Source: Acidobacteriota bacterium
GTDB lineage: Bacteria > Acidobacteriota > UBA890 > WLXD01
Reading direction: 5' to 3'
DNA length: 64,000 nucleotides
Assembly (NCBI GenBank): GCA_012103255.1
Contig: WLXD01000001.1
Span: forward strand, 186,001 to 250,000
The notes beneath the pieces are model-generated. The model searched no databases. It was not told the DNA's origin and saw only the letters and a program-made list of their open reading frames with translations. A program made the translations under genes and the position numbers. Of this stretch, positions 5,924-63,662 are shown in pieces (position 1 is the stretch's first letter; the number at the start of each line of letters is the position of its first letter).

Positions 5924-6229
5924 ATGCCGAAACTACGACTGACTTTCACCACCGGAGTTGTGCTCCAGAGCATCGCGCAGGGCTACCGCTACGGGTTCGA
6001 CATCATGGACGTGTCCGGCCTGCCTGACGGCACTGTCTACCCGGCGCTGCGGCGACTCGAAGACGCGGGCATCCTCGTTTCGGAATGGGAAGACGAGGAG
6101 ACCGCCGGCAAGCGCCCAGCCCGCTGCTACTACGCGCTGACAGCAGACGGTGAGCAGATGCTCGCCGACGCTCGCGGCAAGTTCCCCGCGCTCCAGTGGG
6201 CAATCGGCCAGCCCGTCGAGGAGGCCTAG
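5924..6229 (+). CDS. PadR-family transcriptional regulator (first of four)
   Basis: This 101-aa winged-helix protein has the PadR core: the YGFDIMD segment, the [14 protein letters not shown] recognition-helix region and [12 protein letters not shown] in the wing. Length and sequence fit the short acidobacterial PadR group that accompanies ADOP permeases. GAGGAACGGAAC precedes the ATG. The stop is one base before the ATG of the permease, so the two are co-transcribed and tightly coupled. A palindrome overlapping its promoter suggests autorepression. The effector is unknown. Confidence 0.93.
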
Positions 6230-13692: not shown

Positions 13693-14013
13693 ATGGCGCG
13701 GAATATCGGCGACCTTCAACAGCTCGTGATGCTTGCGATCGCCCGCCTGGGCGACGGTGCCTACGGCGGTTCCGTTCGGGATGAACTCGAACGCGTCGGG
13801 CAGCGATCCGTGTCCGTCAGCACGGTCTACGTCACGATGGTCCGTCTCGAAGCCGACGGTCTGGTTGCCTCGCGCCGCGAGGCTGGTGGACCCGACGCCC
13901 ACGGTGGCCGCAGGCGACGATTCTTCGCGCTGACTGCGGAGGGCAAGCGCACTCTCGTCGCGTCGCGCCAGTCGTTCGCCCGCATGTGGGACGGGCTGGA
14001 ACTGGAAGGATGA
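13693..14013 (+). CDS. PadR-family transcriptional regulator (third)
   Basis: This 106-aa protein has PadR features: LQQLVMLAIARLGDGAYGGS, the VSTVYVTMVRLEADGLV recognition helix, and an Arg-rich wing (GGRRRRFFALTAEGKRTL). It overlaps the following permease gene by 4 bases (ATGA). It sits directly downstream of the strongest palindrome in the window. Confidence 0.92.
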   Translation: MARNIGDLQQLVMLAIARLGDGAYGGSVRDELERVGQRSVSVSTVYVTMVRLEADGLVASRREAGGPDAHGGRRRRFFALTAEGKRTLVASRQSFARMWDGLELEG

Positions 14014-15371
14014 CGCGGCCGCCGCGGCTCGCAGCCCGCCTGCTGGAGTTCGTCGTTCCGTCGCCGTACGGCGCGGATCTGCTCGCCGAACTCGACGATG
14101 CGTATCTTGCTCGCGCGGCCGGCGGCCGACTCGCGCAGATGCGAGCCACCGCGTGGTACTGGCGCCAGGTCGTATCGGGCAACACGTTCCGACTTCGTGC
14201 CGCGGCGACAGAGCTCCGCAACGCGCCCTTGCGATCCGGGGCAACGGACCCCGGCCCGACGAAACTCCCGAGCGGTTCCGACGACGTCCGTTTCGCCGTG
14301 CGGTCACTTCTCAGCGCGCCGCGCTACAGCGTAGCCGCCATCCTGGCGCTCGCGCTCGGCATCGGCGCTGTGACATCGATCTACAGCACCGTCGGCGGCA
14401 TGATCCGCAATCCACTGCCCTTCGAAGACCTAGAGACGCTCCTCGCGGTGGGCGAGGACAAGTCGCGTTTCACGATCCAGGAGGACGCCGAAGCCTGGCT
14501 GCACTACGCCGACTACTCCTACGTGGAGGAACTGCCGGCCTTCTCGGGCATCGCCGGTCTCCGCCTGCGATTCGCGACGCTCACGTCCCCGGGCGAACCG
14601 TTGGACGTGGTCGTCTACGAGGCAACGGCCAACTACTTCGACTTCTCCGGACTCGTCGCGCTTCACGGCCGGCTGCCGAGTACGTCGCAAATGCGCGACG
14701 GCAGCGTAGCGGTGTTGAGCCACGAGTTCTGGCAGCGTCGTTTCGCGGGTCGCCCGGACGTTGTCGGGGAAGAGCTGCACATGGCCGATACCGAGGCCGT
14801 CGTCGTAGGCGTCCTCCCACCGGGAGCTACGTATCCCGCCGGCACTGATCTCTACCTGCCGCTGCGGCTGGCGCCGGAGCTATCGGCCTCATTCGATCGC
14901 GGACGCCTGACGGCTCTCGCTCGACTCGCTCCTGATGTGTCGCTGACGCAGGCGCGCGCCGCGCTGACGGCGACCTCGGACAGGATCGCCGCGGTAGCGC
15001 CGGATTCGCACGCCCAACATCGTCTCGCGGCGATGCCGGTCCGCGAACTCGCGACGTTCGGCAGCAGCCGGCTCATCGCTTTCCTTGATGGGGGCGGCGA
15101 TCTTCCTGCTGCTGCTCGTTTGCGCCAACGTTGCGAGCCTGCAGTTGGCGCGCACCACAGCGCGCGGCAGCGAGATCGCCGTTCGGGTGGCCCTCGGGTC
15201 GAGCAGACTGCGACTGATCCGCCAGCTCCTCGTCGAGAGCCTGTGCCTGTCGCTCGTGGGCGCACTGTTGGGCAGCGTGCTGGCGGTCTGGGGCAGCGGA
15301 CTTCTGCGACAACAACTCGGACACCCCTCGATCCGGTTCTTCTTCTACGGCGCCGACGGAATCGGGGTTGA
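14010..15371 (+). CDS. ADOP-type permease, 5-prime part, frameshifted (third copy)
   Basis: Translation from ATG 14010 gives a normal ADOP N-terminal half: the cytosolic arm LLEFVVPSPYGADLLAELDD, DVRFAVRSLLSAPRYS, the first span (GIGAVTSIYSTVGGMI) and the periplasmic core. It runs to about base 15084. There the expected hydrophobic span should follow SSRLIAFL, but the frame reads into DGGGDLPAAARLRQRC and a meaningless Arg-rich tail to 15371. The missing span is in the next frame. One surplus T in TTCCTTGATGGG explains this exactly. It may be a sequencing error, a real inactivating mutation or a recoding site. Only 14010 to about 15084 is ADOP-like. Confidence 0.8.
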   Translation: MTRPPRLAARLLEFVVPSPYGADLLAELDDAYLARAAGGRLAQMRATAWYWRQVVSGNTFRLRAAATELRNAPLRSGATDPGPTKLPSGSDDVRFAVRSLLSAPRYSVAAILALALGIGAVTSIYSTVGGMIRNPLPFEDLETLLAVGEDKSRFTIQEDAEAWLHYADYSYVEELPAFSGIAGLRLRFATLTSPGEPLDVVVYEATANYFDFSGLVALHGRLPSTSQMRDGSVAVLSHEFWQRRFAGRPDVVGEELHMADTEAVVVGVLPPGATYPAGTDLYLPLRLAPELSASFDRGRLTALARLAPDVSLTQARAALTATSDRIAAVAPDSHAQHRLAAMPVRELATFGSSRLIAFLDGGGDLPAAARLRQRCEPAVGAHHSARQRDRRSGGPRVEQTATDPPAPRREPVPVARGRTVGQRAGGLGQRTSATTTRTPLDPVLLLRRRRNRG

Positions 15372-16677
15372 TGGAGGGGTCCTGATCTTCGCGACTTTCG
15401 CCGCAACGGCCGCCGCGATCGTGTCCGGGCTGGCGCCCGCGCTGCACGGTTCACGCGCCGACCTGAGCGATGTGCTCAAGCCGGGCACGAGAGGAGGCGG
15501 TGCTGGTGGAGGCAACCGGTTGCGCAACACCTTCGTGGTGATCGAAATCGTGCTGGCCGTCGTGCTCCTCGCGGGCGCGGCCTACATGAGCCGATCCGTA
15601 GGGAGCCTCGTGGCGTTCCAGCGTGGACTCGATACCGAGACGTCGCTGTTGGCGGTTCGACTCCGCGGCGAGGCCTTTGCCGAACCCGAGCAACGTGCTG
15701 CATTCGCCCGCACCACCCTGGAGGCGATCACCGCGATGCCCGGAATGACCGCCGTCGGACTGTCGAGTTCCACGCCGGGAGTTCTTGGGTCACGGCCGGC
15801 AGAGTTCGAGATCGATGGACGCGAGCCCGCCAACTCCGCGCCTCTGGCGGAACGTCATCATGTCAGCGCCGGCTACTTCGACGCCCTCGGCGTCCGAATC
15901 ATCGCTGGACGCGCACCGCATCAGGCCGAGGTCGAGGATGGCGCGCATGTAGTGGTGGTCAGCAGCGCGCTCGCCGACAGGTACTGGCCCAACGATGACG
16001 CGATCGGAGGTCGTCTCCGCTTCCAGGACGAGTCCTGGCTGACCATCGTCGGCGTTGCAGCCGACGTAAGTCGAGCATGGAACGACTCCGCGCCCGCGCG
16101 AGCGATCTATCGGCCCTACACGCACTCTGCGCCGACGAGTCTGGTGTTCGCCATCGCAACGGCCAATCCCGACGCCGTCCTCCCCGCAGCTCGGGCACGA
16201 ATCTGGGAGGCAGAACCTCGCCTACCGATCGAGAGCCATCGCACGGTGGCCGACGCGATCGCGGAGCGTTCGATGCTGTACCGCCCCGTGATGAGCATGG
16301 CGTCGATGTTCGCCACCGCGGCCTTCCTACTCGCGCTAGCCGGCATCTACTCCGTCACGTCCTACGCGGCTACCCAACGAACCTGGGAGATAGGCGTACG
16401 CATGGCACTCGGGGCCAACTCTGCGGACGTCGTCCGGCTCTTCGTGAGCCAGGCGGTGCGGCTGGTCCTCGTCGGGCTGGCGCTCGGACTTCCAGCGGCG
16501 TGGATGCTCACCCGTGCGCTTGCAGCCTTCGGACGAGGAATGACCACGGACGTGGACGCGACCGTCGTCCTGGCGGCGCTGTCCACAGCGGTGGTACTCG
16601 CGGCCGCGTTGGCCAGCTATCTGCCGGCCCGCGGCGCGGGCAAGACCGACCCGGCCACGACGCTTCGCTCCGAGTAG
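15085..16677 (+). CDS. ADOP-type permease, 3-prime part, frameshifted (third copy)
   Basis: This is the continuation of the third ADOP in the +1 frame. It starts inside the membrane span GAAIFLLLLVCANVASLQLA that the 5-prime part lacks, followed by [18 protein letters not shown], the second MacB-like core and the terminal spans after IYSVTSYAATQRTWEIGVR. TTG 15085 and ATG 15088 are possible starts, but no ribosome-binding site precedes them, so independent translation is doubtful. Joined, the two parts give about 889 residues, the normal ADOP length. Confidence 0.8.
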   Translation: MMGAAIFLLLLVCANVASLQLARTTARGSEIAVRVALGSSRLRLIRQLLVESLCLSLVGALLGSVLAVWGSGLLRQQLGHPSIRFFFYGADGIGVDGGVLIFATFAATAAAIVSGLAPALHGSRADLSDVLKPGTRGGGAGGGNRLRNTFVVIEIVLAVVLLAGAAYMSRSVGSLVAFQRGLDTETSLLAVRLRGEAFAEPEQRAAFARTTLEAITAMPGMTAVGLSSSTPGVLGSRPAEFEIDGREPANSAPLAERHHVSAGYFDALGVRIIAGRAPHQAEVEDGAHVVVVSSALADRYWPNDDAIGGRLRFQDESWLTIVGVAADVSRAWNDSAPARAIYRPYTHSAPTSLVFAIATANPDAVLPAARARIWEAEPRLPIESHRTVADAIAERSMLYRPVMSMASMFATAAFLLALAGIYSVTSYAATQRTWEIGVRMALGANSADVVRLFVSQAVRLVLVGLALGLPAAWMLTRALAAFGRGMTTDVDATVVLAALSTAVVLAAALASYLPARGAGKTDPATTLRSE

Positions 16678-20108: not shown

Positions 20109-21209
20109 CTATTCGGTGTCGGGGCGGTCGCCCGCGAACCAGGCCGCCATAACGTCGGCGGCGAGTTTGTTCTGCGGCGTGAAGCCGTTGTGTCCAGGGC
20201 CGCCAGCGGCGCTGTGTCCCGGAAACCACTTCCACCAGTAGGCGCCGACCACCCAGTCCTCATGCCAGAAGGTGCGAAAAAACGCTTCGTAGAGGTTTTT
20301 CTGAATCACGGCATCAAAGTCACTGTCGTCGCCGCGGATAGGCCACTCCCATGGCCGCGACGCGGCATCGCTCCAGGAGCGATAGCCAATCTCGGTGAAG
20401 ATCACCGGCTTCCCGACCCTCTCGTGCAGATCGCGCAGTGCGTCGCGGTGCGGCCCCCATCCGGCCACCAGGGCATCTACTCCCGGGGTGGGCTCGTGGC
20501 TGAGCGGAAAGTACCCCTGCACTCCGATGTAGTCGAGTTCTTCCCAGAACGAAACGTCCGTGAACTCGTCGTACCAATTGGCCGCGTAGGTGAGCTCACC
20601 GGAGTAAACGTCGCGGATCTCGCGGATCAAGTCTCGCCACTTACCGGGGCGGGCGATGACTGTCTTGTGCAGTTCTGTGCCGATGCAAAACAGCGGAATG
20701 CCGCGGGACTCCGCGAACTGTGCGTAGTGGAGAATGAACTCGCGATAGTCCGCGAACCATGTGTTCCAATCGGCGTCGGTGGGCATGTAGATGTCGCCGC
20801 GCCAGGCCCCTCCACTCACCCATATGTGCGGCTTGAGCATCGTGCGCAGACCGCGCTCACGCGCGAGGTCTAGGGTGCGCGAGAGCCCTTCATCGGTCTC
20901 GCCCCAGAAAACGCGCCCGCCGGTAGCGATTCGAATCGCGGGCTTGTCGGTAGCTTCCTGCCAGCCAAACGGCGTCTGAGCGATCCACTCCACGTGGTGA
21001 TCGAGCAGAGGGTCGAGCGCGGCACCGTCGATGCTCCGGCCGGCGACCCAAGACACGCCACGCTGCTTCGCGTCACCGACCGTCTCAGCTGGGTCCTGGC
21101 CGGTGACGGGCGCGGCCAGGCAGACGGCGGCGGCGACGAGGAAGGCTGCAGGAGTGAAACGGCGAGCGGACACGGCGTCTCGGGCTGACGGGGATGGGCG
21201 AGGGTCCAC
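20109..21209 (-). CDS. Secreted glycoside hydrolase, GH113-like TIM barrel (first copy)
   Basis: The protein is 366 aa with an N-terminal export signal (FLVAAAVCLAAPVTGQ). The TIM-barrel pattern fits GH113-like hydrolases: LKPHIWVSGGAWRGDI, then IGTEL with the likely acid/base E179, LTYAANW, LDYIGVQGYFPL, and FTEIGY with the likely nucleophile E273. Characterised GH113 members are beta-mannanases, but the substrate here is not known. The GTG at 21209 is used; a second GTG at 21173 would give a shorter, more typical signal peptide, and neither has a strong ribosome-binding site. A second homolog lies at 39054-40190. Confidence 0.8.
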   Translation of the reverse strand: MDPRPSPSARDAVSARRFTPAAFLVAAAVCLAAPVTGQDPAETVGDAKQRGVSWVAGRSIDGAALDPLLDHHVEWIAQTPFGWQEATDKPAIRIATGGRVFWGETDEGLSRTLDLARERGLRTMLKPHIWVSGGAWRGDIYMPTDADWNTWFADYREFILHYAQFAESRGIPLFCIGTELHKTVIARPGKWRDLIREIRDVYSGELTYAANWYDEFTDVSFWEELDYIGVQGYFPLSHEPTPGVDALVAGWGPHRDALRDLHERVGKPVIFTEIGYRSWSDAASRPWEWPIRGDDSDFDAVIQKNLYEAFFRTFWHEDWVVGAYWWKWFPGHSAAGGPGHNGFTPQNKLAADVMAAWFAGDRPDTE

Positions 21210-37432: not shown

Positions 37433-39112
37433 ATCTCTCGCCACTCCGTTACCGGCAACCTCACCGGCCTCCAATCGTCACAGCGCCGCGCTCTCGAGCG
37501 CACTTTCCGACGGCGACTGCCGCCCGATCGTGTTGTGACCCAGGAACTCGCTCGGCATCTCGCGGAGATCTCGTGCGACATCGGCCGTCAGGTCGGCGCC
37601 CTGATCACACGAGAGGGCGCGATCAAGCACGTCATCGTGGGCGACGCGCACGAACTCATGCTGCCGGACATCGGCCGTCTGCGCGGTGGCGCCGGCCGAT
37701 TCCGCGGGTTGCGACTAGTGCATACACATGTGCGTGGCGAAGCGCTCACTCAGGATGACCTGAACGATCTCGCGCTCTTGCGACTCGACATGGTGGCCGT
37801 AATTCATCCGGAAGACGATGGACGCGCCGGCAAGGTCGAGGTCGCCTATCTGGACCCTGCCCGACTGGCGGCTGGCGACGACGGCGTCGACCCCTTTGTG
37901 CACGTGCATGCGCGCGATGCTCGTTCGCTCGATCTCGACCTCACCGCCACGATGCACGCGCTCGAAGACGAGTTCGCGCGAGTCGTCGAGTCAGCGCGCG
38001 GCCCTAGCGATGCCGAGCGAGCGCTGGTGATCGGCGTGCGAGTGGAGGACCGACACTTCGAGGAGACCCTGGAGCTCGTGGAGTCAGCCGGCGTCGTCGT
38101 GGCCGGTGAACTGCGACAACGGCGGCGACGCGTCCACCCGCGCACGATCGTCGGCAGCGGCAAGCTGCAGGAGATCATCCTCGAGGGCATGCGCCGTGAC
38201 GCGGAGGTTGCGATCTTCGACGTGGACCTGAAGCCGGCCCAGGCACGGGCGTTCGAGGACGCCACCGGCATGAAGGCCATCGACCGCACCCAGTTGATCC
38301 TGGACATCTTTGCGCAGCGGGCACGGTCGCGCGACGGCAAGCTCCAGGTCGAACTGGCGCAGCTGCGCTACTCGCTGCCGCGCCTCACCGACAAGGACGC
38401 CGGCCTGTCGCGGCTCGCTGGTGGCATCGGCGGCCGTGGACCCGGTGAGACCGTCATGGAAATCGGACGTCGTCGGATCCGTGATCGCATCCGAAGGTTC
38501 GAGCGTCAGGTAACCGATCTCTCGAAGCAACGTGGACTGCGGCGCGCACAACGGCGCCGGCACCGGGTTCCCGTGCTGTCGATCGTCGGCTACACGAACG
38601 CGGGCAAGAGCACCCTGCTCAACGCGATGACCGCGTCGGAGATAGAAGCCGAGGACCGGCTCTTCATGACGCTCGACCCGACGAGTCGTCGGCTTCGCTT
38701 CCCGCAAGAGGGGGAGGTGGTGATCACGGACACTGTCGGCTTCATATCGGAGTTGCCGACCGACCTGATCGAGGCCTTCCGTGCCACCCTGGAGGAGTTG
38801 GCAGACGCGAGCCTCTTGCTTCATGTCGCCGATGCTTCCGATCCGCACGTCGATGCCAAGATCGAGACCGTCGCGGACCTGCTGGCGTCGCTCGAACTCG
38901 GCGACGTACCGACTCTCTGCGTCCTCAACAAGGCGGACGCCGTCGATCGCGAACTACTCGACGCCCTCGTCGCGCGCCACGAAGCGGTTGCGGTGAGCGC
39001 GCTGCGCCGCGAAGGGTTGAATGAACTCATCGACGCCGCGGAAGCCCGGCTCGCTAGCGGGCTCCGTACCAACCGGCCAGGACACCCTCGGCCGGCTTCC
39101 CCCGCGGAGTGA
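37433..39112 (+). CDS. hflX: GTPase HflX
   Basis: This ribosome-associated GTPase splits stalled 70S ribosomes under stress. Visible are the HflX N-terminal domain ([46 protein letters not shown]) and the G domain: G1 [10 protein letters not shown]2 region [12 protein letters not shown]3 DTVGF, G4 NKAD and G5 VSALR. It has the long N-terminal extension seen in many HflX proteins. The first standard start is GTG 37535, but in-frame residues upstream ([20 protein letters not shown]) also match the family. A perfect AGGAGG at 37421-37426 points to ATC 37433, with 6-base spacing, as the start. So the product is certain and the start is not; 37535 is the conservative choice. Confidence 0.93.
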
Positions 39113-40190
39113 AATCGCTGTTGCGCAAACCGCCCCACGCCGGTGACGTGTACCAGATCCAGAAGTAGACGCCGCCAATGTGCGGGGCTGGCTCCGCGCC
39201 GAACGCGTCACGTATGCACCGGTAGATAAGTGCCTGGATGTCGGGATCGGCCGCACGTTCCTCGTGCCACTCCCAGGGACGAAACGCGGCACCCATGGCC
39301 GATTTGTAGCCGATCTCCGTGAGGAGTACGGGACGTCCAACTCGTGCCGCAACCCGCTCCAATCGGCCGCGGATCTCGGTCATCCGCGACACACATGCGG
39401 CAGGGGTCAGCGTCTCGTCGATGCGGTCAACGAGCGGCCAGAATGCGTCCACACCCGCGTAGTCGAGTGCGCCCCACCAGGAGATCGCCTCGAATTCGCG
39501 GTCCCAGTTGGCCGCGTAGGTGAGTGACCCTCGATATGTCTTCCGCATCTCTTCCGCGAGCGCGGGCCAGAACTCGGGGTGCCCCAACGCGACGCCAGTG
39601 AGTTCGGAGCCGATCGAGATCGCCGCCACGCCAAGCTCCTCGCCCAGCGCGGCGTAGTGCAGCAAGGCCCTGCGGTAGTTCTCGGACCACTCGGGCCAGC
39701 CATCAGGAGTCGGCGCGATGTCGCCGCGCCAGGCCCCGTCGTCCTTTTCCGCGAGCCACAGGTGAGGCTTGAGCAGCACGGCCAGGTCGAGTTCATGTGC
39801 CTGTTGCACCACACGGCGAGTCTGATCGTCCACAGCTTCGCGTGATGGCTCCCAGTAGAAGTCCGTCTCGCCGAGGCGGCGCTGGAAGAAACTCGGGATC
39901 ACCGCGACGTGATCGACCCCCAGCGCTACGAGCTCCTCGAGCGTCCCGTCGATCTCGCGTTCGTCGAGTAGCCCACCGTAGTCGCCGATGGGCTCCAGAT
40001 TGATTCCGCGGTGGAAATCGTCCGGCAATGCGCGTGCGTTCTGCACGGGCTCGGGATTCACCGGCGACAGCGCCGGATCACATGCCGCGGCCACCGCCAG
40101 AAGGAGGAGGGCCGGCACGCCGCCCGCAAGGACAGGGACGCTGTGGGAATGGCCCCGGCGCCGAGGGGTCTTGTTCGCTCGATTCGGCAT
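39054..40190 (-). CDS. GH113-like glycoside hydrolase lipoprotein (second copy)
   Basis: This 378-aa protein has a signal peptide and lipobox VAAAC (Cys37 from ATG 40190). The barrel has the same order of motifs as the first copy: LLKPHLWLAEKDDGAWRGDI, IGSEL with likely acid/base E196, LTYAANW, LDYAGVDAFWPL, and LTEIGYKSAMGAAF with likely nucleophile E292. ATG 40190 is used because longer in-frame starts would bury the signal peptide. Its last 59 bases overlap the end of hflX on the other strand. It is probably a surface hydrolase acting on a mannan-like or related glycan; the substrate is inferred only from the family. Confidence 0.8.
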   Translation of the reverse strand: MPNRANKTPRRRGHSHSVPVLAGGVPALLLLAVAAACDPALSPVNPEPVQNARALPDDFHRGINLEPIGDYGGLLDEREIDGTLEELVALGVDHVAVIPSFFQRRLGETDFYWEPSREAVDDQTRRVVQQAHELDLAVLLKPHLWLAEKDDGAWRGDIAPTPDGWPEWSENYRRALLHYAALGEELGVAAISIGSELTGVALGHPEFWPALAEEMRKTYRGSLTYAANWDREFEAISWWGALDYAGVDAFWPLVDRIDETLTPAACVSRMTEIRGRLERVAARVGRPVLLTEIGYKSAMGAAFRPWEWHEERAADPDIQALIYRCIRDAFGAEPAPHIGGVYFWIWYTSPAWGGLRNSDFTPRGKPAEGVLAGWYGAR

Positions 40191-40428
40191 CCGGTGATCG
40201 TAGATCATCCGCACATCCGACTCCGCGATCCGGCACCGATGGCTGTTCCGTGGGCGACGACCGGCCGACCGATCGCTATGGAGGCAGCCCCAAAAGGGCG
40301 GCGAGCGACGACGCTGCGAGATCGAACCGCGGTTGTCTGGATCGCAGAGCAAGTGATTCGCAGGGACGCCGGCCGCCTGCTCTTTGAATACCGCGCCGGA
40401 GGGCGACAAGTACGGGTTTGCGGCGCGA

Positions 40429-41139
40429 TCAGCCCGTTGTGGTCAGGGTTTTGACCCGCCCCAGGCCAAGGAGGGCCTCGGCGGTGCGCAGCGATGCCAA
40501 CACCGGGTTCACAACCGGCACGCCGAGTTCTTCGGTCAGCTCTTCCGCCACATCGAGGAACCCCATCGTCATGCAGCCCAGCACCAGGACGTCGGCGCCG
40601 CTGTCCGCAAGCTCGCCGCCGCGCTCGACCATGCGGGCCAGAACGGCTGCCCGTTTCTTGCGCAACTCGAGCACCGGCACCTCGACTGCGGTGATCGCCC
40701 GCACGCGTGACTCCAGCCCGTAGTCCGCCACAAGATCATCGAGAATCGGGATCACGTCTGCGACCACTGTGATCAACCCGATCCGCGAACCCAGCTGCGC
40801 CGCGAGATGCAGCGAGGCCGCGGCAGGCCCGATGACCGGCGCATCGAGGAGTGCGTTCGCCTCGCGAAGGCCCGGGTCGCCGAAGCAGCCGATGATCACG
40901 GCGTCGTCATCGGCAACCGCCGACGGGAACGTCGCGAGCATGGCAGCAGCGGCTCGGCGCTCGTCCTCTGCCGACTCGACGGACGTCGGTCCGTCCGGGT
41001 TGTCTCGGAGCACAACGTTGACCCCGGCACGCACGTGCCGTTGCAGGTAAGCCTGCCGGCGCTCGGCTTCGGACGCGCCGTCCGGATGAGCGCTCAGAGC
41101 GCCGGGAACGAAATAGCAAATACGATGCGGTTCAGCCAT
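40429..41139 (-). CDS. Asp/Glu/hydantoin racemase-family protein
   Basis: This 236-aa protein has the two-base racemase layout with both catalytic Cys: IIGCFGDPGL in the N-terminal half and VLGCMTMGF in the C-terminal half. The N terminus (RICYFVPGALSAHPDG) and the PVIGPAAASLHLAAQLG segment fit the hydantoin-racemase branch more than glutamate racemase. It starts 9 bases after the symporter stop and is the last gene of a four-gene operon, which hints that the symporter imports its substrate. Confidence 0.88.
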   Translation of the reverse strand: MAEPHRICYFVPGALSAHPDGASEAERRQAYLQRHVRAGVNVVLRDNPDGPTSVESAEDERRAAAAMLATFPSAVADDDAVIIGCFGDPGLREANALLDAPVIGPAAASLHLAAQLGSRIGLITVVADVIPILDDLVADYGLESRVRAITAVEVPVLELRKKRAAVLARMVERGGELADSGADVLVLGCMTMGFLDVAEELTEELGVPVVNPVLASLRTAEALLGLGRVKTLTTTG

Positions 41140-41148
41140 CGTTCAACC

Positions 41149-42585
41149 CTACTGCGAGTCCGCGTCGAAAAACGGTGCAAGCGCCTCGTCGCTGACAGGC
41201 CGGGTCAACAGACTCACGCCAACGAACAACGCCAGGCTCACGAGCACGCCGGGGAAGATCGGGTCGATGCCCCAGGGATAGTCGGGGCGCTGCCACCACC
41301 AGCTGAAGAACGCCACGAAGCCGCCGAGCATCGACGCGAGCGTGCCCGCGGCGGTGCCGCGACGCCAGTTCAGCCCGAGAAGCACCGGGATGAAGAAGAA
41401 CGAGGCAATGATCTTCGCGTAGTCGACGACGATCTCCTGGACCAGGCCGAGATCCACGAAGGTCAGTCCAAGGGGGATCAGCCCGACGATCAACACCGAC
41501 CAGCGATTGATCCGGAGCTTCTCCGCCTCCGTCGCCAGGGGTCGGATCAGCTTGCCGTAAAGATCGTGCGAGAGCCCCGCAGCGCTGATGATCATGATCG
41601 AATCGCAGGTGCTCATGATCGCCGACAAGGCCCCCACGAGGAGCAACGACCCCGCCAGCGGCGTCAACACCTGCAGCGCCAGGATGCTGCTGGCCAGATC
41701 CGGCGTGGGCAGCACGGGAAACAGCGCCCGAATGCCGAGTCCCGCGATCAGGGCCACGCTGCCGATGACCGCCTGGAAGATGAAGGCGATACCGATGGCC
41801 AGCCGTACGGTTTTAACGTCTTTCAGCGCGTAGATCCGGGCGATCTGGTAGGGCGCGGTCGCAGCGCTCAGCGCGAACGCCAGCGCGAACACAGAGACCT
41901 CGCCGAAGCCGAAGTACCAGCCAGTGAGACGTGCGTCGATGCCGGTGAGAAGTCGACCCATGAGATCGAAGCTCCCCACCCGATAGAGCAACAGCGGCAC
42001 GGCGACGCAGAACGCGAGCGCCATGACCAACGCCTGCGCGAAGTCCGTGTAGACGCTGCTACGCATCCCGCCCATCCACGTGTACAGCAGCGTCATCAAC
42101 GCCACGACCAACACGCCGGATAGAAACGGCCACCCGAACAGAGCCTGAAAGATGATCCCACCGGCGGTGTACTGAGCCGACAGATACACCGTGTAGGCGA
42201 CGACGATCAGAATTGCCGACACCACGCGGGCGCGTTCCGATTCGAATCGAACCGCGATGTAGTCGGGCACGGTGACCCCGCCGAAGGCTCGTAGCTTCGG
42301 GGCCACCCAAACGGCTGAGACAATCCAGCCGATCCACATCCCGGGCCAGATCCAAGCCCACGAAACCCCGGTCAGATAGTGGAATCCGATGGTTCCGACC
42401 ACCGTTCCCGATGACAGCTGCGTCGCAGCCAGGGTCGCCCCCCCGACCAGCGCGCCAATCGAGCGTCCGGCAACCAGAAAATCCGCCTCGGTGTGCGTCC
42501 TGCGGTACGACCACCATGCGATCCCGAGGATCACCGTGCCGTATACGGCCAACACGACGAAGAAAACACCCGACGCGTTAGCCAC
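41149..42585 (-). CDS. Sodium:solute symporter (SSS family)
   Basis: This protein of about 478 aa has 13 or so hydrophobic spans and SSS motifs: the WWSYRRTHTEADFLVAGRSI first cytoplasmic loop, GATLAATQLSSGTVVGTIGF with the unwound first core helix, and ALSAIMSTCDSIMIISAAGL with the Na2-site Ser/Thr-rich helix. GTG 42585 is chosen because its reading overlaps the stop of the 36-aa ORF upstream (GTGGCTAA) and CGGGG precedes it. A TTG at 42618 is the alternative. The transported solute is unknown; the downstream racemase suggests an amino acid or hydantoin. Confidence 0.92.
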   Translation of the reverse strand: MANASGVFFVVLAVYGTVILGIAWWSYRRTHTEADFLVAGRSIGALVGGATLAATQLSSGTVVGTIGFHYLTGVSWAWIWPGMWIGWIVSAVWVAPKLRAFGGVTVPDYIAVRFESERARVVSAILIVVAYTVYLSAQYTAGGIIFQALFGWPFLSGVLVVALMTLLYTWMGGMRSSVYTDFAQALVMALAFCVAVPLLLYRVGSFDLMGRLLTGIDARLTGWYFGFGEVSVFALAFALSAATAPYQIARIYALKDVKTVRLAIGIAFIFQAVIGSVALIAGLGIRALFPVLPTPDLASSILALQVLTPLAGSLLLVGALSAIMSTCDSIMIISAAGLSHDLYGKLIRPLATEAEKLRINRWSVLIVGLIPLGLTFVDLGLVQEIVVDYAKIIASFFFIPVLLGLNWRRGTAAGTLASMLGGFVAFFSWWWQRPDYPWGIDPIFPGVLVSLALFVGVSLLTRPVSDEALAPFFDADSQ

Positions 42586-42688
42586 GATGACCCCGGTTCT
42601 TCCACCAGGCCCAAGCAAAATAGGCCAGGCACCACGCCGCTGCTAGAAGGAAGAAGCCCCAGAAATTCCAGCCGAAGCCGTCGTTCAT
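42578..42688 (-). CDS. 36-residue Trp-rich membrane microprotein in the symporter operon
   Basis: This short ORF encodes 36 residues with six Trp and one hydrophobic span (FFLLAAAWCLAYFAWAW) followed by a basic tail (WKNRGHRG), so it would insert with the C terminus inside. GGAGGCGGCAGC precedes its ATG. The ATG overlaps the upstream stop by 4 bases and its TAA overlaps the symporter GTG by 8 bases, so it is locked into the operon by coupling at both ends. Small partner proteins are known for some SSS carriers (for example YhdT with PanF, DUF485 with acetate permease); this one looks different and shorter. Confidence 0.7.
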   Translation of the reverse strand: MNDGFGWNFWGFFLLAAAWCLAYFAWAWWKNRGHRG

Positions 42689-43374
42689 GCTGCCGCCTCC
42701 GCGGTCGATGTGCGGCGCGCGTGCCACCACCAACCCGCGAGTAACAGCGCAAGCGCGACGCCAAGCGACAACGCCTCCAGCCACCGATGCTGGTGGAGCT
42801 CCGCGCCCGCGTCACCGAACACAACGTGCACGAGGCTCGGCACGGCCACCAGACTCGCCACGAGCCCCTGGGGCCCAGAGACCAGCGGTGGAAACGCGTT
42901 ACCGGCGTAGGCGGCGCCAGGTGGCAGCGCGACGCGGAGACTCACGGCGTCCGTGTCACCACTCGGGGTCGCCTCGGGAACCGGGAGCGTGAACCGGTAG
43001 GCCGACGCCTCCGAACCGGTGATGCGGTAGCGAATGGTCAAGGAGCCGACAGCGTCGGGTGGCAGTGTCAGCGCGCCAAGCGCGCTGCTGCGTCGCGACA
43101 GCACCGGGTCCAGTCGCGCGCCGTTCAGGGTGACCTCGATGTCTTCCAGGGTCTGCCCCGGTTGTTCGGCCAGCAAGATGGCCGGCGTGCCCCTGCCGCC
43201 AAGATCGAAGGTCGCCGCAACGGCGGCCGCGGTGGGGGTCTCGACGGTGACGACAACTTCGCCGCGCTCGAGTTGGGCGTCAGCGTCTTGCTCCTGCGCG
43301 CCCGCAACGGCAGCATGGGCCGGCACGGCGGCAATCGCCGTCAGGAACAACAAGATGGAGCTAGACCGCTTCAC
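42685..43374 (-). CDS. Exported single-span protein of unknown function, first gene of the symporter operon
   Basis: This 229-aa protein from GTG 43374 has a signal peptide (ILLFLTAIAAVPAHA), a beta-rich periplasmic domain (GEVVVTVETPTAAAVAATFD, LTIRYRITGSEASAYRFTLP), and a C-terminal membrane anchor (LSLGVALALLLAGWWWHARR) with a short cytosolic tail. I recognise no named family. The topology, with a periplasmic domain tethered next to the microprotein and carrier, suggests a substrate-delivery or regulatory subunit. It is divergent from the M28 peptidase with only 50 bases between, so that gap must hold both promoters. Confidence 0.72.
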   Translation of the reverse strand: MKRSSSILLFLTAIAAVPAHAAVAGAQEQDADAQLERGEVVVTVETPTAAAVAATFDLGGRGTPAILLAEQPGQTLEDIEVTLNGARLDPVLSRRSSALGALTLPPDAVGSLTIRYRITGSEASAYRFTLPVPEATPSGDTDAVSLRVALPPGAAYAGNAFPPLVSGPQGLVASLVAVPSLVHVVFGDAGAELHQHRWLEALSLGVALALLLAGWWWHARRTSTAEAAA

Positions 43375-43424: not shown

Positions 43425-45209
43425 ATGCGCTGGGCCATTGAGCGATACGACCAGGAGGCCATGACCTCCGCCCGCGACGCTGTCGCCATCGACGAACCGT
43501 GGGCATTGCTCGAGCGTTTCTCCACGCTCGTGCGCGACAGCGGCAGCGAACATGAGCGCGAGGCCGCCGAGTACATGCGCGAGCGACTCGAGGCGCTCGG
43601 ACTCCAGCCCGAGGTCTATCTGCCCGATCTGTACATCAGCGTGCCTCAAAGTTGCGCCCTCCGCGTGACGGGAGACGACCCCGCCGAGTTCGACTGCAAG
43701 GTCCCGGCGTTCTCGCTCTCGACGGGCGACGCGCCCGTGGCCGGCGAACTTGTCGAGATTGCCACCGGCGAGATCAAAGACATGGCGAACCTGTTCCGCT
43801 CCAGCGTAGCGGGTGACTTGAGTCACGTTGCAGGCAAGGTGGTGCTGGCAGACGGCTACGCGATGCCGAAAGTCGTAGCCCAGCTCGAATCGGCGGGCGC
43901 CGCGGCAGCAATATTCGTCAACCCCGGCAACTCGCACGAAGGCATCATCACGCCGGTGTGGGGCACCCCGGGCATCGATGACCGCGACCGGCTTCCGGCC
44001 ATCGTGGCCCTGCAGGTGTCGGCCGCCACCGGCGCCGCGCTGCGCGAACGCCTGGCAAACAGCGGCTGCAACGTGGAGATCGAAACCGAGCTTTTCGAAG
44101 GATGGGCGCCGTGCCCCGTCGTCGTCGTCGACATTCCCGGGCAGACGGACGACTTCGTCCTGCTGCACGGCCACTATGACTCGTGGCACGAAGGCATCGG
44201 CGACAACGCGGTGGGCGATGCTGCACTGCTCGAGGTAGCCCGGGTACTCGGCGGCGTACGTGACCGACTGCACCGCGGCGTCCGGGTCGCCTGGTGGCCG
44301 GCGCACTCCACCGGTCGCTACGGCGGCTCCACCTGGTTCGCCGACGAGTTCGCAATGGAACTCCGCGACCATTGCGTGGCGCAGATCGACGTCGACTCGC
44401 CGGGCTGCAGGTGGGCCACCGAATACACGCAGGTGATGTGGATGGCGGAGGCCGAGGAAATCGCGCGTGAATCCATCCGCGCGGGTGCAGATGCCGAGGC
44501 TGCCGGTATGCGGCCACTCCGCGCTGGCGACTACTCGTTCAATCAGATCGGCCTGAGCAGCTTCTTCATGCTGCTGTCGAACATCCCGGCCGATGTCGTT
44601 GCCCAAAAGGGCTTCTACCCGGTGGGCGGCTGCGGCGGCAACAGCAACGCCTGGCACACCGAGGGCGACACACTCGATGTTGCCGACCCCGACAACCTGC
44701 TGCGCGACATCCACGTATACATGGAAGCCGTTGTACGACTGGCGACGGCGCCGTTCCTTCCGTTCGATCATCGAGCCGCCGTGCACGAGATCGGCGCTGC
44801 GGCCACCGAGTACGGTGAGGCGTGTGACGACGCGCTCGACATGACTCCGATCCTGGAGGAGTGCGCATCGCTGATCGTCGACCTCGAAGACTTCTACGAC
44901 ATGGTCGAGGCAACGCTCAAGGAAACTGCTGACGCTCACGCGGCAGCCGCGGACTTCGACTGGGTGCAGATGGCGCTGTCCCGCGAACTGGTGCCGGTGA
45001 ACTACGCGCGTCGACGCTACTACCACGACCCGGCGCTCGAAACTCCGGCCGTGCCCGACCTCGCCATCCTTCGTCAGTGGGCCGATATGGAGGATGACCC
45101 CGACGGTCGAGGCTTCCTCGTGGCCCAGGCCCTACGCGGCCGCAACCGGGTGGTCGACGCGTTGAAGCGTGCGCGGGAACGCGTCGCGGGGGCGCTGCCG
45201 GCTGAATAG
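43425..45209 (+). CDS. M28-family peptidase-like protein with PA domain and altered catalytic motif
   Basis: This 594-aa protein has no signal peptide. An M28 N-terminal part, a PA-like insert (KVVLADGYAMPKVVAQLESA, ~138-157) and the zinc motif HGHYDSWHEGIGDNAVG (H250, D260) are visible. A later His lies in SNAWHTEGDTLDVADPDN. Where M28 enzymes have the catalytic Glu-Glu before GxxGS, this protein reads WWPAHSTGRYGGS (H294, S295). A Gly/Asp-rich metal site remains, so it may still bind zinc but cleave differently or not at all. CCGGAG precedes the ATG. It is divergent from the symporter/racemase operon and may belong to the same physiological module. Confidence 0.88.
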   Translation: MRWAIERYDQEAMTSARDAVAIDEPWALLERFSTLVRDSGSEHEREAAEYMRERLEALGLQPEVYLPDLYISVPQSCALRVTGDDPAEFDCKVPAFSLSTGDAPVAGELVEIATGEIKDMANLFRSSVAGDLSHVAGKVVLADGYAMPKVVAQLESAGAAAAIFVNPGNSHEGIITPVWGTPGIDDRDRLPAIVALQVSAATGAALRERLANSGCNVEIETELFEGWAPCPVVVVDIPGQTDDFVLLHGHYDSWHEGIGDNAVGDAALLEVARVLGGVRDRLHRGVRVAWWPAHSTGRYGGSTWFADEFAMELRDHCVAQIDVDSPGCRWATEYTQVMWMAEAEEIARESIRAGADAEAAGMRPLRAGDYSFNQIGLSSFFMLLSNIPADVVAQKGFYPVGGCGGNSNAWHTEGDTLDVADPDNLLRDIHVYMEAVVRLATAPFLPFDHRAAVHEIGAAATEYGEACDDALDMTPILEECASLIVDLEDFYDMVEATLKETADAHAAAADFDWVQMALSRELVPVNYARRRYYHDPALETPAVPDLAILRQWADMEDDPDGRGFLVAQALRGRNRVVDALKRARERVAGALPAE

Positions 45210-60618: not shown

Positions 60619-62085
60619 TCATTCGGCAAACAATCGGTCGAGCGCGTTGGACTGCACGGGTCCACGCGCTCGGCCGATTGCCACGTAGACGAGAAGCGCA
60701 AGTCCGATCGCTGGGAAAACCTGGTGCACTGTGGCGGCGATCGGCAATTGCGGCCAAAGCAGCAGGACCATCAACCCGGACGCGAACGACGCCAGGACGC
60801 CGTGCGCGTTGCCGCCGCGCCAGAACAGGCCGAGCAACACCGCAGGCGCGAAGCAAGCCGCGTACATCGAGCCCGAGAGCACGGTCAGGCCGACGATTCC
60901 GCCCGGAGGCCGCAACGCGATCACGGCGGTAATGAGCGCAAACAGCGCAACCCAAATCCGCGTCCGGCGGAGCTCGGACGCCTCGGATTGCACACCGCGC
61001 CACACGGACGCGATGTCGCGCTCGGCCGTCGAGGCCATCACTAGCAGAACCGAGTCGAGCGACGACATCGCAGCGGCCACCATGGCCACCAGCAGGAACG
61101 CGGTGACTCCGGGACTGAAGACGTCGGCGCTTGTGAGCAACATCGGCACGACCTGGTCCGTATCGGTCACGCCCTCCGGGAATATCGCGCGCGCAAAGAG
61201 CCCGAGCGGAACCAGTAGCGTGTACACCAACGCGAAGGCCAGCGTCGAGGTCCAGACGCCGGCACGGATGCTCGTTGCGTCATCGATGGCATAGAACCGT
61301 GAGAGCTGGCGTGGTTCGGTGACAAACTTGGCTGTTCCCGCTACCAGCACGCCGACGATGTACACGAGCGGCAGCGGGCCGTTGAGCGCGAACAGGTGAG
61401 CCGTTGCGGGTGCCGCGCGCACTTCGGCGAGGGCCCCCAGGCCGCCGGCGGCGCGCACTGTGCCGCTGAATAGCATCAGCGCCGCGAAGACCATGACGAC
61501 TCCCTGGACGGCGTCGGTCTTCACCACCGAAATGAACCCACCAGCAACCGTGTAGCCCACGACAACGACGAAGACCAGAACGATGGCCGCCTCGTACGGA
61601 ATCTCCAGGAATGCCTGCACGAGATTGCCGATGCCTTTGAACACGGCCGTCATGTAGAAGAAGCTCGCAAACAGCACGATCACGGCAGCCGAGACACGCG
61701 CCGCGACGCTGTCGAAACGGAAGCCGATGTAGTCCGCTACCGTGAGCGATCCGAGCTCGCCTGTGAAGCGGCGGAGTCGCGGTGCCACGAATCGCCAGGC
61801 GACAAACGACATCACCACGGTGGCCGGTGCGAGCAGCAGCCAGCCGCCCCCCCACGCGTAGGCCTGACCAGCGAAGCCGACGAAACTGTTGGTGCTCGAA
61901 TACGTGGCGAAGAACGAGAGTCCGAGCACCACTCCGCCCATTGAGCGACCACCGACGTAGTAGTCCGCAACGCCGTGTGTCGCACGATGACCGGTCCAGG
62001 CGTGGTACGCCAGCATCCCCGCATAGGCGAGCAGCAGCAGATGAACCGGCCAGTAGGTCTGAAGCGAATACAACACGCCGCTCAC
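60619..62085 (-). CDS. Sodium:solute symporter (SSS family), second copy
   Basis: This 488-aa protein has about 13 hydrophobic spans. SSS motifs are HGVADYYVGGRSMGGVVLGL, FFATYSSTNSFVGFAGQAYA in the first core helices, and MVAAAMSSLDSVLLVMASTA at the sodium site. GTG 62085 overlaps the stop of the acyl-CoA synthetase gene (GTGA); a longer in-frame start would lie inside that gene. The coupling suggests that it imports the carboxylic acid activated by the synthetase. It shows little similarity to the other symporter (41149-42585) outside family motifs. Confidence 0.92.
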   Translation of the reverse strand: MSGVLYSLQTYWPVHLLLLAYAGMLAYHAWTGHRATHGVADYYVGGRSMGGVVLGLSFFATYSSTNSFVGFAGQAYAWGGGWLLLAPATVVMSFVAWRFVAPRLRRFTGELGSLTVADYIGFRFDSVAARVSAAVIVLFASFFYMTAVFKGIGNLVQAFLEIPYEAAIVLVFVVVVGYTVAGGFISVVKTDAVQGVVMVFAALMLFSGTVRAAGGLGALAEVRAAPATAHLFALNGPLPLVYIVGVLVAGTAKFVTEPRQLSRFYAIDDATSIRAGVWTSTLAFALVYTLLVPLGLFARAIFPEGVTDTDQVVPMLLTSADVFSPGVTAFLLVAMVAAAMSSLDSVLLVMASTAERDIASVWRGVQSEASELRRTRIWVALFALITAVIALRPPGGIVGLTVLSGSMYAACFAPAVLLGLFWRGGNAHGVLASFASGLMVLLLWPQLPIAATVHQVFPAIGLALLVYVAIGRARGPVQSNALDRLFAE

Positions 62086-63590
62086 TGCGTGTCCTCGACG
62101 AGTTTCCGTACGTCTGGCTTGGTGACCTTGCCCATGGCGTTGCGTGGCAGTTCGTCCACGCGCGAGATTTCCTTCGGCACTTTGTAGGGCGCCAACTGGC
62201 CGCGAGCCCATTCGCGCAGCGATTCGGCGTCGAAGCTCTCACGGTCGGCGACGCCTACTTCCACGGCGGCGCAAACCCGCTCACCCCACTGAGTGTCCGG
62301 CACTCCCACGACGGCGACTTCGTCAACGTTCGGGTGCTGTCGGAGCACCTCTTCGATCTCGAGCGCCGAGACCTTGTAGCCGCCGGTCTTGATGATGTCG
62401 ACGCTGGTCCGCCCCACCATGCGGTAGTACCCATCTTCGAGCACCGCCTCGTCGCCGGTCACGAACCAGCCATCACGAAACGCGGCCTGCGTTTCCTCCG
62501 ATCGTTGCCAATAGTCGGCGAACACCTGGTTACCCCTCACGAGGAGTTCGCCCTGCACGCCCGCCGCGCAGTCCTGCCCACGCTCGTCGACCAGCCGCAC
62601 CTCGACCCCGGGCAGCGGGCGCCCCACGGTGCCCGGCCGCCGCTCGCCGTCCAACGGATTCGACAGGGCCATCCCGATCTCAGTCATGCCGTAACGCTCG
62701 AGCAACCGCGTCCCTGTGATTGCCTCCCAGCGTTCGAGCAGGTCGACCGGCAGTGCCGCCGAACCCGAGGTCATCAGGCGGATGCCGCCCAGCCCTGAGC
62801 CCCAGCGTGAGTGAGCGTCGGGCTCCGCTTCCCAGGCGGAGACGAGACGGCGGTAGATGGTCGGGACGGCCATGAACACCGAGCAGTCGCCGTGGCTCAG
62901 CCTCTCCCAGACCGCTCGCGCATCGAACGGCCCGATAAACTCGCAACTCGCACCTGCGTAGAGGGCGCAACCAAGCGCCACCTGGAGGCCGTGGACGTGG
63001 TGCAACGGCAGGACGTGCAGCAGTCGATCGTCCGGGTGCCAGCCCCACGCCGCTTCCAGCGCCTCCCACTGGGCTCGCACCTGTGCATGACTGGTAACAA
63101 CGCCTTTCGGCCTGCCCGTCGTGCCGCTCGTATAGACCATCAGCGCCGGATCGTCACCGGCCGGGTCCGGGAGCGCGACTGGCGCCGTGCTTCGCAGGTT
63201 GCGCGCAAGAAGAACCTCGGCACCGGCGGGCGCTGCCGCGCCTAGTTTCTCGGCGTATGCGTCGTCGGCAATCAGCCCGCCGGGCTCCGCGTCCGCAATG
63301 AGGCGCGTCAACTCGGGTACCGGATGCGAGAGCGCCATCGGCACCGCGACTCCGCCCGCGCGCCATATCCCCCAGAGCACCGCGATGTACTCATTCCCCG
63401 GGCCCACCAGGTACGCGACGCGGCTGCCGTCGAGCGTGCTACGGCCCTCGAGCAGGCCGGCAGCGATCGCGGCGGATCGCTCCAGCAGGTCCGCATATGT
63501 TGCGGACTCTTCCGGGTCGACGATCGCGAGGCGCTCCCGGTTGCTTTCTGCCCGCGCGACCAACTCCAGCGGCATCGTCGACCGGCGCAT
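62082..63590 (-). CDS. AMP-forming acyl-CoA synthetase, malonyl/methylmalonyl-CoA synthetase-like
   Basis: This protein of about 502 aa has the ANL adenylation core: VYTSGTTGRPKGVV, LPLHHVHGLQVALG, RYGMTEIGMALSNPLDGERR, DGWFVTGDEAV and the C-terminal hinge and Lys motif (RTSVDIIKTGGYKVS, PRNAMGKVTKP). The HHVHG motif and the RPGTVGRPLPGV segment resemble MatB/ACSF3, which activate malonate or methylmalonate. Substrate is inferred from motif similarity only. The start is uncertain: ATG 63590 or 63575, neither with a strong ribosome-binding site. It is the first gene of a two-gene operon with the symporter. Confidence 0.88.
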   Translation of the reverse strand: MRRSTMPLELVARAESNRERLAIVDPEESATYADLLERSAAIAAGLLEGRSTLDGSRVAYLVGPGNEYIAVLWGIWRAGGVAVPMALSHPVPELTRLIADAEPGGLIADDAYAEKLGAAAPAGAEVLLARNLRSTAPVALPDPAGDDPALMVYTSGTTGRPKGVVTSHAQVRAQWEALEAAWGWHPDDRLLHVLPLHHVHGLQVALGCALYAGASCEFIGPFDARAVWERLSHGDCSVFMAVPTIYRRLVSAWEAEPDAHSRWGSGLGGIRLMTSGSAALPVDLLERWEAITGTRLLERYGMTEIGMALSNPLDGERRPGTVGRPLPGVEVRLVDERGQDCAAGVQGELLVRGNQVFADYWQRSEETQAAFRDGWFVTGDEAVLEDGYYRMVGRTSVDIIKTGGYKVSALEIEEVLRQHPNVDEVAVVGVPDTQWGERVCAAVEVGVADRESFDAESLREWARGQLAPYKVPKEISRVDELPRNAMGKVTKPDVRKLVEDTQ

Positions 63591-63662
63591 GGTACCGGAT
63601 CGCCCGCCATGGCCTAACGGGGAACGACGGTGTAGATTCCTCGACACCTCGGAGGGTTAGTC

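Follow-up and report, generated by a model that had tools for sequence, protein, structure and literature searches.

A sodium:solute symporter operon encoding a tryptophan-rich microprotein and a tethered outer domain: a putative three-subunit uptake system

A sodium:solute symporter (SSS) gene from an Acidobacteriota genome is coupled to genes for two single-span proteins, a 36-aa tryptophan-rich microprotein (MICRO) and an exported 229-aa protein with a predicted outer beta-sandwich (TETH), and we consider it probable that the three products form one Na+-coupled uptake system, with complex, topology, sodium coupling and substrate all predicted. Carriers of the SSS (SLC5) family serve as drug targets and are the textbook case of transporters made of a single chain. 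The window, that is, the whole 64,000-nt stretch of DNA that was analysed, encodes within 40429-43374, all on the minus strand, TETH (42685..43374, GTG start), MICRO (42578..42688), the SSS (SLC5-type) sodium:solute symporter (41149..42585, 478 aa, with the start taken as the GTG at 42585) and an Asp/Glu/hydantoin racemase superfamily enzyme (40429..41139, 236 aa). TETH and MICRO overlap by 4 nt (ATGA), MICRO and the carrier overlap by 8 nt, and the carrier and racemase are separated by a 9-nt gap, which bears out the four coupled genes of the preliminary description made from the same DNA. Its exported single-span partner was likewise recovered as TETH, which has a signal-like N terminus and a predicted C-terminal membrane helix, and its two-Cys racemase as a PF01177 protein (E 3e-38) with one Cys in IGCFG and one in LGCMT. 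The MICRO ATG follows shortly after a GGAGG, and MICRO, with six Trp, is alone in having at least six among the 245 window ORFs of 30-60 aa. The nearest named relatives of the window's genome are the Acidobacteriota metagenome-assembled genomes (MAGs) OFTM26 and OFTM137, and two genomes of the same genus encode TETH, MICRO and the carrier with identical overlaps. Absent from the preliminary description is a divergent gene for an M28-family peptidase with a PA-like insert (43425..45209, plus strand; PF04389, E 1.2e-17), which starts on the opposite strand 50 bases from the TETH start.

MICRO is a real, conserved protein-coding gene, as indicated by family alignment, selection and helix periodicity. 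Codon comparison within the genus gave pN/pS values of 0.18/0.64, 0.17/0.61 and 0.11/0.43, with pN well below pS and hence purifying selection. Two other pair comparisons, L104/L107 and L105/L107, are out of register by one residue and were left out. A profile hidden Markov model (HMM) of MICRO yielded five matches at E ≤ 0.01 in 396 Acidobacteriota genomes, four of them at E ≤ 4e-15 and one, in genome G151, at 0.004; in 200 genomes from the phylum to which a Gemmatimonadetes MAG belongs it yielded 19 matches at E ≤ 0.05, 13 of them at E ≤ 1.1e-6. These 13 Gemmatimonadota matches, the four strong Acidobacteriota matches and the G151 match all adjoin an SSS gene. A refined model of 19 sequences, run against 247 Acidobacteriota genomes, returned four matches at E ≤ 7.5e-16, all beside SSS genes, and another 13 at E ≥ 0.002 that we read as noise (short alignments, mostly inside long frames). 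The best E value in a control set of 99 genomes from the phylum of a Flavobacterium was 0.0037. A match in genome G516 (locus L112, E 0.0027) was dropped as lying inside a long ORF with no SSS gene, and five other matches of the 200-genome search, at E 0.008-0.03, were left out. The genome-wide matches, selection and control phylum rule out a chance ORF and, with a conserved helix face, uphold the earlier claim that MICRO is genuinely a gene. Family members span 29-56 aa, including a 49-aa relative in an Acidobacteriales MAG (L017). F13, Y23 and W26 occur in all of the 19 sequences, and G6, F9 and G11 in nearly all. The periodicity of conservation along the helix peaks at 108 degrees, a signal equalled in 3 of 5,000 permutations. 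A single conserved face would be expected if the helix packs against a partner, which could also be another copy of MICRO in a homo-oligomer.

The preliminary description proposed a three-part carrier with an outer domain and a microprotein, and suggested looking for both small ORFs upstream of related SSS genes. Among 30 carrier loci picked by TETH, MICRO or SSS matches, whose fractions are thus not population rates, the TETH domain is found in 29 (28 by HMM plus one gene fusion, L111) and MICRO in 19. The core of the proposed set thus recurs and the three-part proposal passes this check, but the microprotein is not universal: 11/30 loci have no MICRO HMM match. In three of these the slot holds another kind of single-span ORF, and in eight we noticed no small ORF. 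Weak TETH matches (L081, L082 and L083), loci without an SSS gene (L069, L070 and L078) and remote SSS genes (L020 and L021) were not counted among the 30. In a quick tree with long outgroup branches, the 30 TETH- or MICRO-linked carriers form one group (support 82), apart from other SSS paralogues and from PutP, PanF and ActP of E. coli, and divide into two subclades (support 100 and 99). MICRO is encoded in 14/14 loci of the first subclade and the TETH domain in 13/14. The second subclade, which holds the window, has TETH in 16/16 loci, MICRO in 5/16 and the other single-span ORF in 3/16 (L074, L079 and L080), so within the clade of the window's own carrier MICRO is not obligate. In 150 Gemmatimonadota genomes, a search seeded with the carrier of L103 found nine close carriers (E ≤ 1e-90), with MICRO directly upstream in 9/9. 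We note that the other single-span ORF, which has a charged tail (L074:6611-6799, plus strand; same slot in L079 and L080), lies between TETH and SSS, as though it had come to take the place of MICRO.

SSS membership of the window carrier is given by its SSF domain (PF00474, E 2.3e-58 over residues 37-423), and its profile relatives in the PDB include SLC5A7-type carriers, vSGLT and SGLT1/2. By alignment, its Na2-site residues are A54, L57, S58, A322, S325 and T326. The Na2 site of PutP, which we take to comprise A53, M56, A337, S340 and T341, is kept in the window carrier except for Met56, which is replaced by Leu; PanF has Ile at this position. The AlphaFold2 (AF2) model of the carrier, for which a 13-helix LeuT-type fold would be expected, is all-helical but poor (pLDDT 60) and was set aside. 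The carrier of L071, linked to TETH but not to MICRO, has Arg at the position of PutP Ser340, and its coupling may differ.

The AF2 model of TETH (pLDDT 81, pTM 0.70) consists of a beta-sandwich (residues 34-188) and a C-terminal helix (192-228). The modelled ectodomain adopts the N-terminal beta-sandwich fold of M1 and M61 peptidases, with a VIA Z of 11.5 against an M1 N-terminal domain (4fgm; 140 aligned residues, rmsd 3.3) and a Z of 10.8 against an M61 peptidase (8j9c; 149 aligned residues, rmsd 3.6). The structural matches listed, from Z 11.5 down to about 10, are to M1, M61 and oligosaccharyltransferase subunit domains, the last presumably Ost1/ribophorin I, and the best Foldseek E value is 1.3e-6. 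TETH shares the fold of these proteins but has no catalytic metallopeptidase domain, being 229 aa long and ending in the membrane helix. The relation was found by fold comparison only: a PDB sequence search with TETH gave nothing credible, its comparison with the M1, M61 and oligosaccharyltransferase families in Pfam gave no match at E ≤ 1, and holin-like and other Pfam labels were rejected as scoring below their cut-offs. No Pfam or NCBIfam family was found for the TETH and MICRO proteins scanned. TETH HMM matches adjoin an SSS gene in 6/7 genomes of one search and 13/18 of another. The three TETH relatives without an SSS gene (L069, L070 and L078, near position 6000) lie among TauE-like and cytochrome/peroxidase-like genes (named by eye), in surroundings that they have partly in common.

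Peptidases are the recurrent enzymes beside these carriers. Genes for M19 (16) or M28 (8, two of them divergent) peptidases lie beside the carrier in 24/30 loci, and in 6/30 loci an M28 gene precedes TETH on the same strand as the carrier. The L017 locus encodes an amidohydrolase nearest to a Xaa-Pro dipeptidase model, at 233 bits against a cut-off of 500. The racemase, which the preliminary description counted among the four coupled genes, was scored in 2/30 loci (the window and L014); we rejected it as a core part and regard it as a lineage-limited passenger. No signal peptide was seen in the start regions read for the M19, M28 and Xaa-Pro-dipeptidase-like neighbours, so the substrate is probably imported whole and cut inside. 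These neighbours point to a dipeptide or another amide of an amino acid as the most likely substrate.

These features suggest the following scheme. The SSS protein would act as the Na+-coupled carrier, and MICRO would form one transmembrane helix, N terminus out and C terminus in, whose conserved face packs on a partner so as to keep the complex stable or in position, like MAP17 on SGLT2. TETH would sit beside MICRO, with its M1/M61-like sandwich outside, above the outer vestibule of the carrier. Cleavage of the imported substrate in the cytosol would fall to the M19, M28 and Xaa-Pro-dipeptidase-like enzymes encoded nearby and, in the window's genus, the racemase may handle a product of this cleavage. 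In a bolder and less likely reading, prompted by the peptidase-like modelled fold, TETH might capture peptide N termini outside and pass them to the carrier, with MICRO coupling TETH to the carrier. A substrate-capture subunit, which this carrier family is not known to have, would then be present in two carrier clades across Acidobacteriota and Gemmatimonadota.

Gene order and fusion bear on whether MICRO and TETH act as proteins alongside the carrier. TETH and MICRO overlap by 4 nt in 15/17 loci with separate genes, and MICRO overlaps the carrier gene by 4 or 8 nt in 15/17 loci with the carrier downstream. Because MICRO overlaps its neighbours on both sides in most loci, its ORF could serve as a leader that couples translation to the carrier gene, its product idle, and such a device has a precedent: in Pseudomonas putida, the small ORF cbrX overlaps cbrA, the gene for an SLC5-type sensor, by 17 nt and is reported to act by translational coupling (PMC6591292). 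CbrX differs in having 58 aa and two predicted helices, and the protein encoded downstream of this coupling device is a sensor kinase. We regard a leader as very unlikely here. The L017 and L034 loci have the order carrier, TETH, MICRO, so MICRO can have no leader role for the carrier there; MICRO is conserved at the amino-acid level, with a one-sided helix face; and eight carriers follow TETH without MICRO. A leader is also at odds with L111, in which TETH and MICRO are fused in one 275-codon gene that overlaps the carrier gene by 4 nt. In this fusion the TETH membrane helix is lost and a Pro/Ser-rich linker leads into the MICRO helix, which would place the MICRO N terminus outside; no other observation points as strongly to a partnership of TETH and MICRO.

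The same fusion would also suit a two-helix complex of TETH and MICRO that anchors or regulates a peptidase or other envelope protein and is linked to the carrier only metabolically, as would the frequent peptidase neighbours and the TETH relatives without an SSS gene. Such a complex seems unlikely to us, since MICRO adjoins SSS without TETH in L035, strong MICRO matches never occur away from SSS, and the peptidases look cytosolic whereas the TETH domain is predicted outside. It is also quite unlikely, in our judgement, that the roles of MICRO and TETH are confined to assembly or stability, through membrane insertion or protection from proteolysis, outside the working transporter. MAP17 is reported to aid the surface expression and stability of SGLT2 and not its activity directly (PMC10803289), which speaks for such factors; the conserved outer domain fits a lasting role outside better. 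The latter alternative differs from the three-subunit system that we favour only in when the subunits act.

The best-studied exception to single-chain SSS carriers that we found is human SGLT2 with MAP17 (PDZK1IP1), a single helix that is reported to contact TM13 of SGLT2 (PMC10803289). SGLT2 and SGLT1 with MAP17 resemble the present system in joining an SLC5-family carrier to a single-TM auxiliary subunit, seen here as a single hydrophobic span with gene linkage. They differ from it in that it is a bacterial operon, with a helix protein of 29-56 aa and an added second subunit bearing an outer beta-sandwich. Pfam scans at E ≤ 1 gave no match to the MAP17 model, and no sequence link was found. 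By analogy, the best reading of the locus is a putative bacterial equivalent of SGLT2-MAP17 that has an outer domain as well.

Bacterial precedents also exist for small proteins next to SSS genes. In E. coli yhdT-panF and yjcH-actP, a small membrane protein gene lies upstream of the SSS gene and overlaps it; YhdT (DUF997, about 80 aa) and YjcH (DUF485, 104 aa) belong to other families and come with no tethered outer domain. Deletion of yhdT resembles deletion of panF, which its authors ascribe to the overlap (PMC5120140). The gene of a DUF3311 protein, again of another family, is described as adjoining the SSS gene mctP and co-regulated with it (PMC9100948). For one SSS carrier, a review names a PII protein. 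With SGLT2-MAP17, yhdT-panF and yjcH-actP as precedents, SSS carriers are not always single-component, and the lack of precedent implied by the preliminary description, in its contrast with single-component carriers, does not hold. MICRO proteins (the window, L017, L034, L035, L103 and L104) had no DUF997, DUF485, DUF4212 or DUF3311 match in Pfam/NCBIfam at E ≤ 1, so that no family match ties MICRO to these DUF partner families, the comparison being with them and not with CbrX. Small proteins overlapping SSS genes are already known, and none was found described with a tethered outer domain; given such known partners, no DUF link and no precedent found for the outer domain, the locus is a variant on a known theme. 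Neither a description of the three-gene system of TETH, MICRO and SSS nor the phrase 'symporter small accessory protein', which we take to be an NCBI product name, was found in the open-licence papers searched. Elsewhere in the window's genome (L041, G000:C2:611500-618500), an 80-aa DUF3311-like protein (E 9e-5, below the cut-off) is encoded directly before another SSS paralogue.

Two conserved extra proteins, one of about 30-40 residues and both once fused, offer a simple genetic system for studying the role of carrier subunits, and the locus may help to account for the repeated presence of small overlapping genes ahead of those for SSS carriers. It may also represent a sodium-driven route of peptide uptake in widespread, mostly uncultured bacteria. 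Elsewhere in the window, a second SSS carrier (60619-62211, minus strand), with 31-32% identity to the first, adjoins an acyl-CoA-ligase-like ORF (62082-63647). At 13986-16677 (plus strand), the ORFs 13986-15371 and 15085-16677 overlap in different frames and look, by eye, like an ABC-type permease split by a frameshift, with several similar permeases nearby. Two similar TIM-barrel-like exported proteins, also recognised by eye, are encoded on the minus strand at 20109-21209 and 39054-40300, and the latter is also found beside the carrier in relatives of the same genus.
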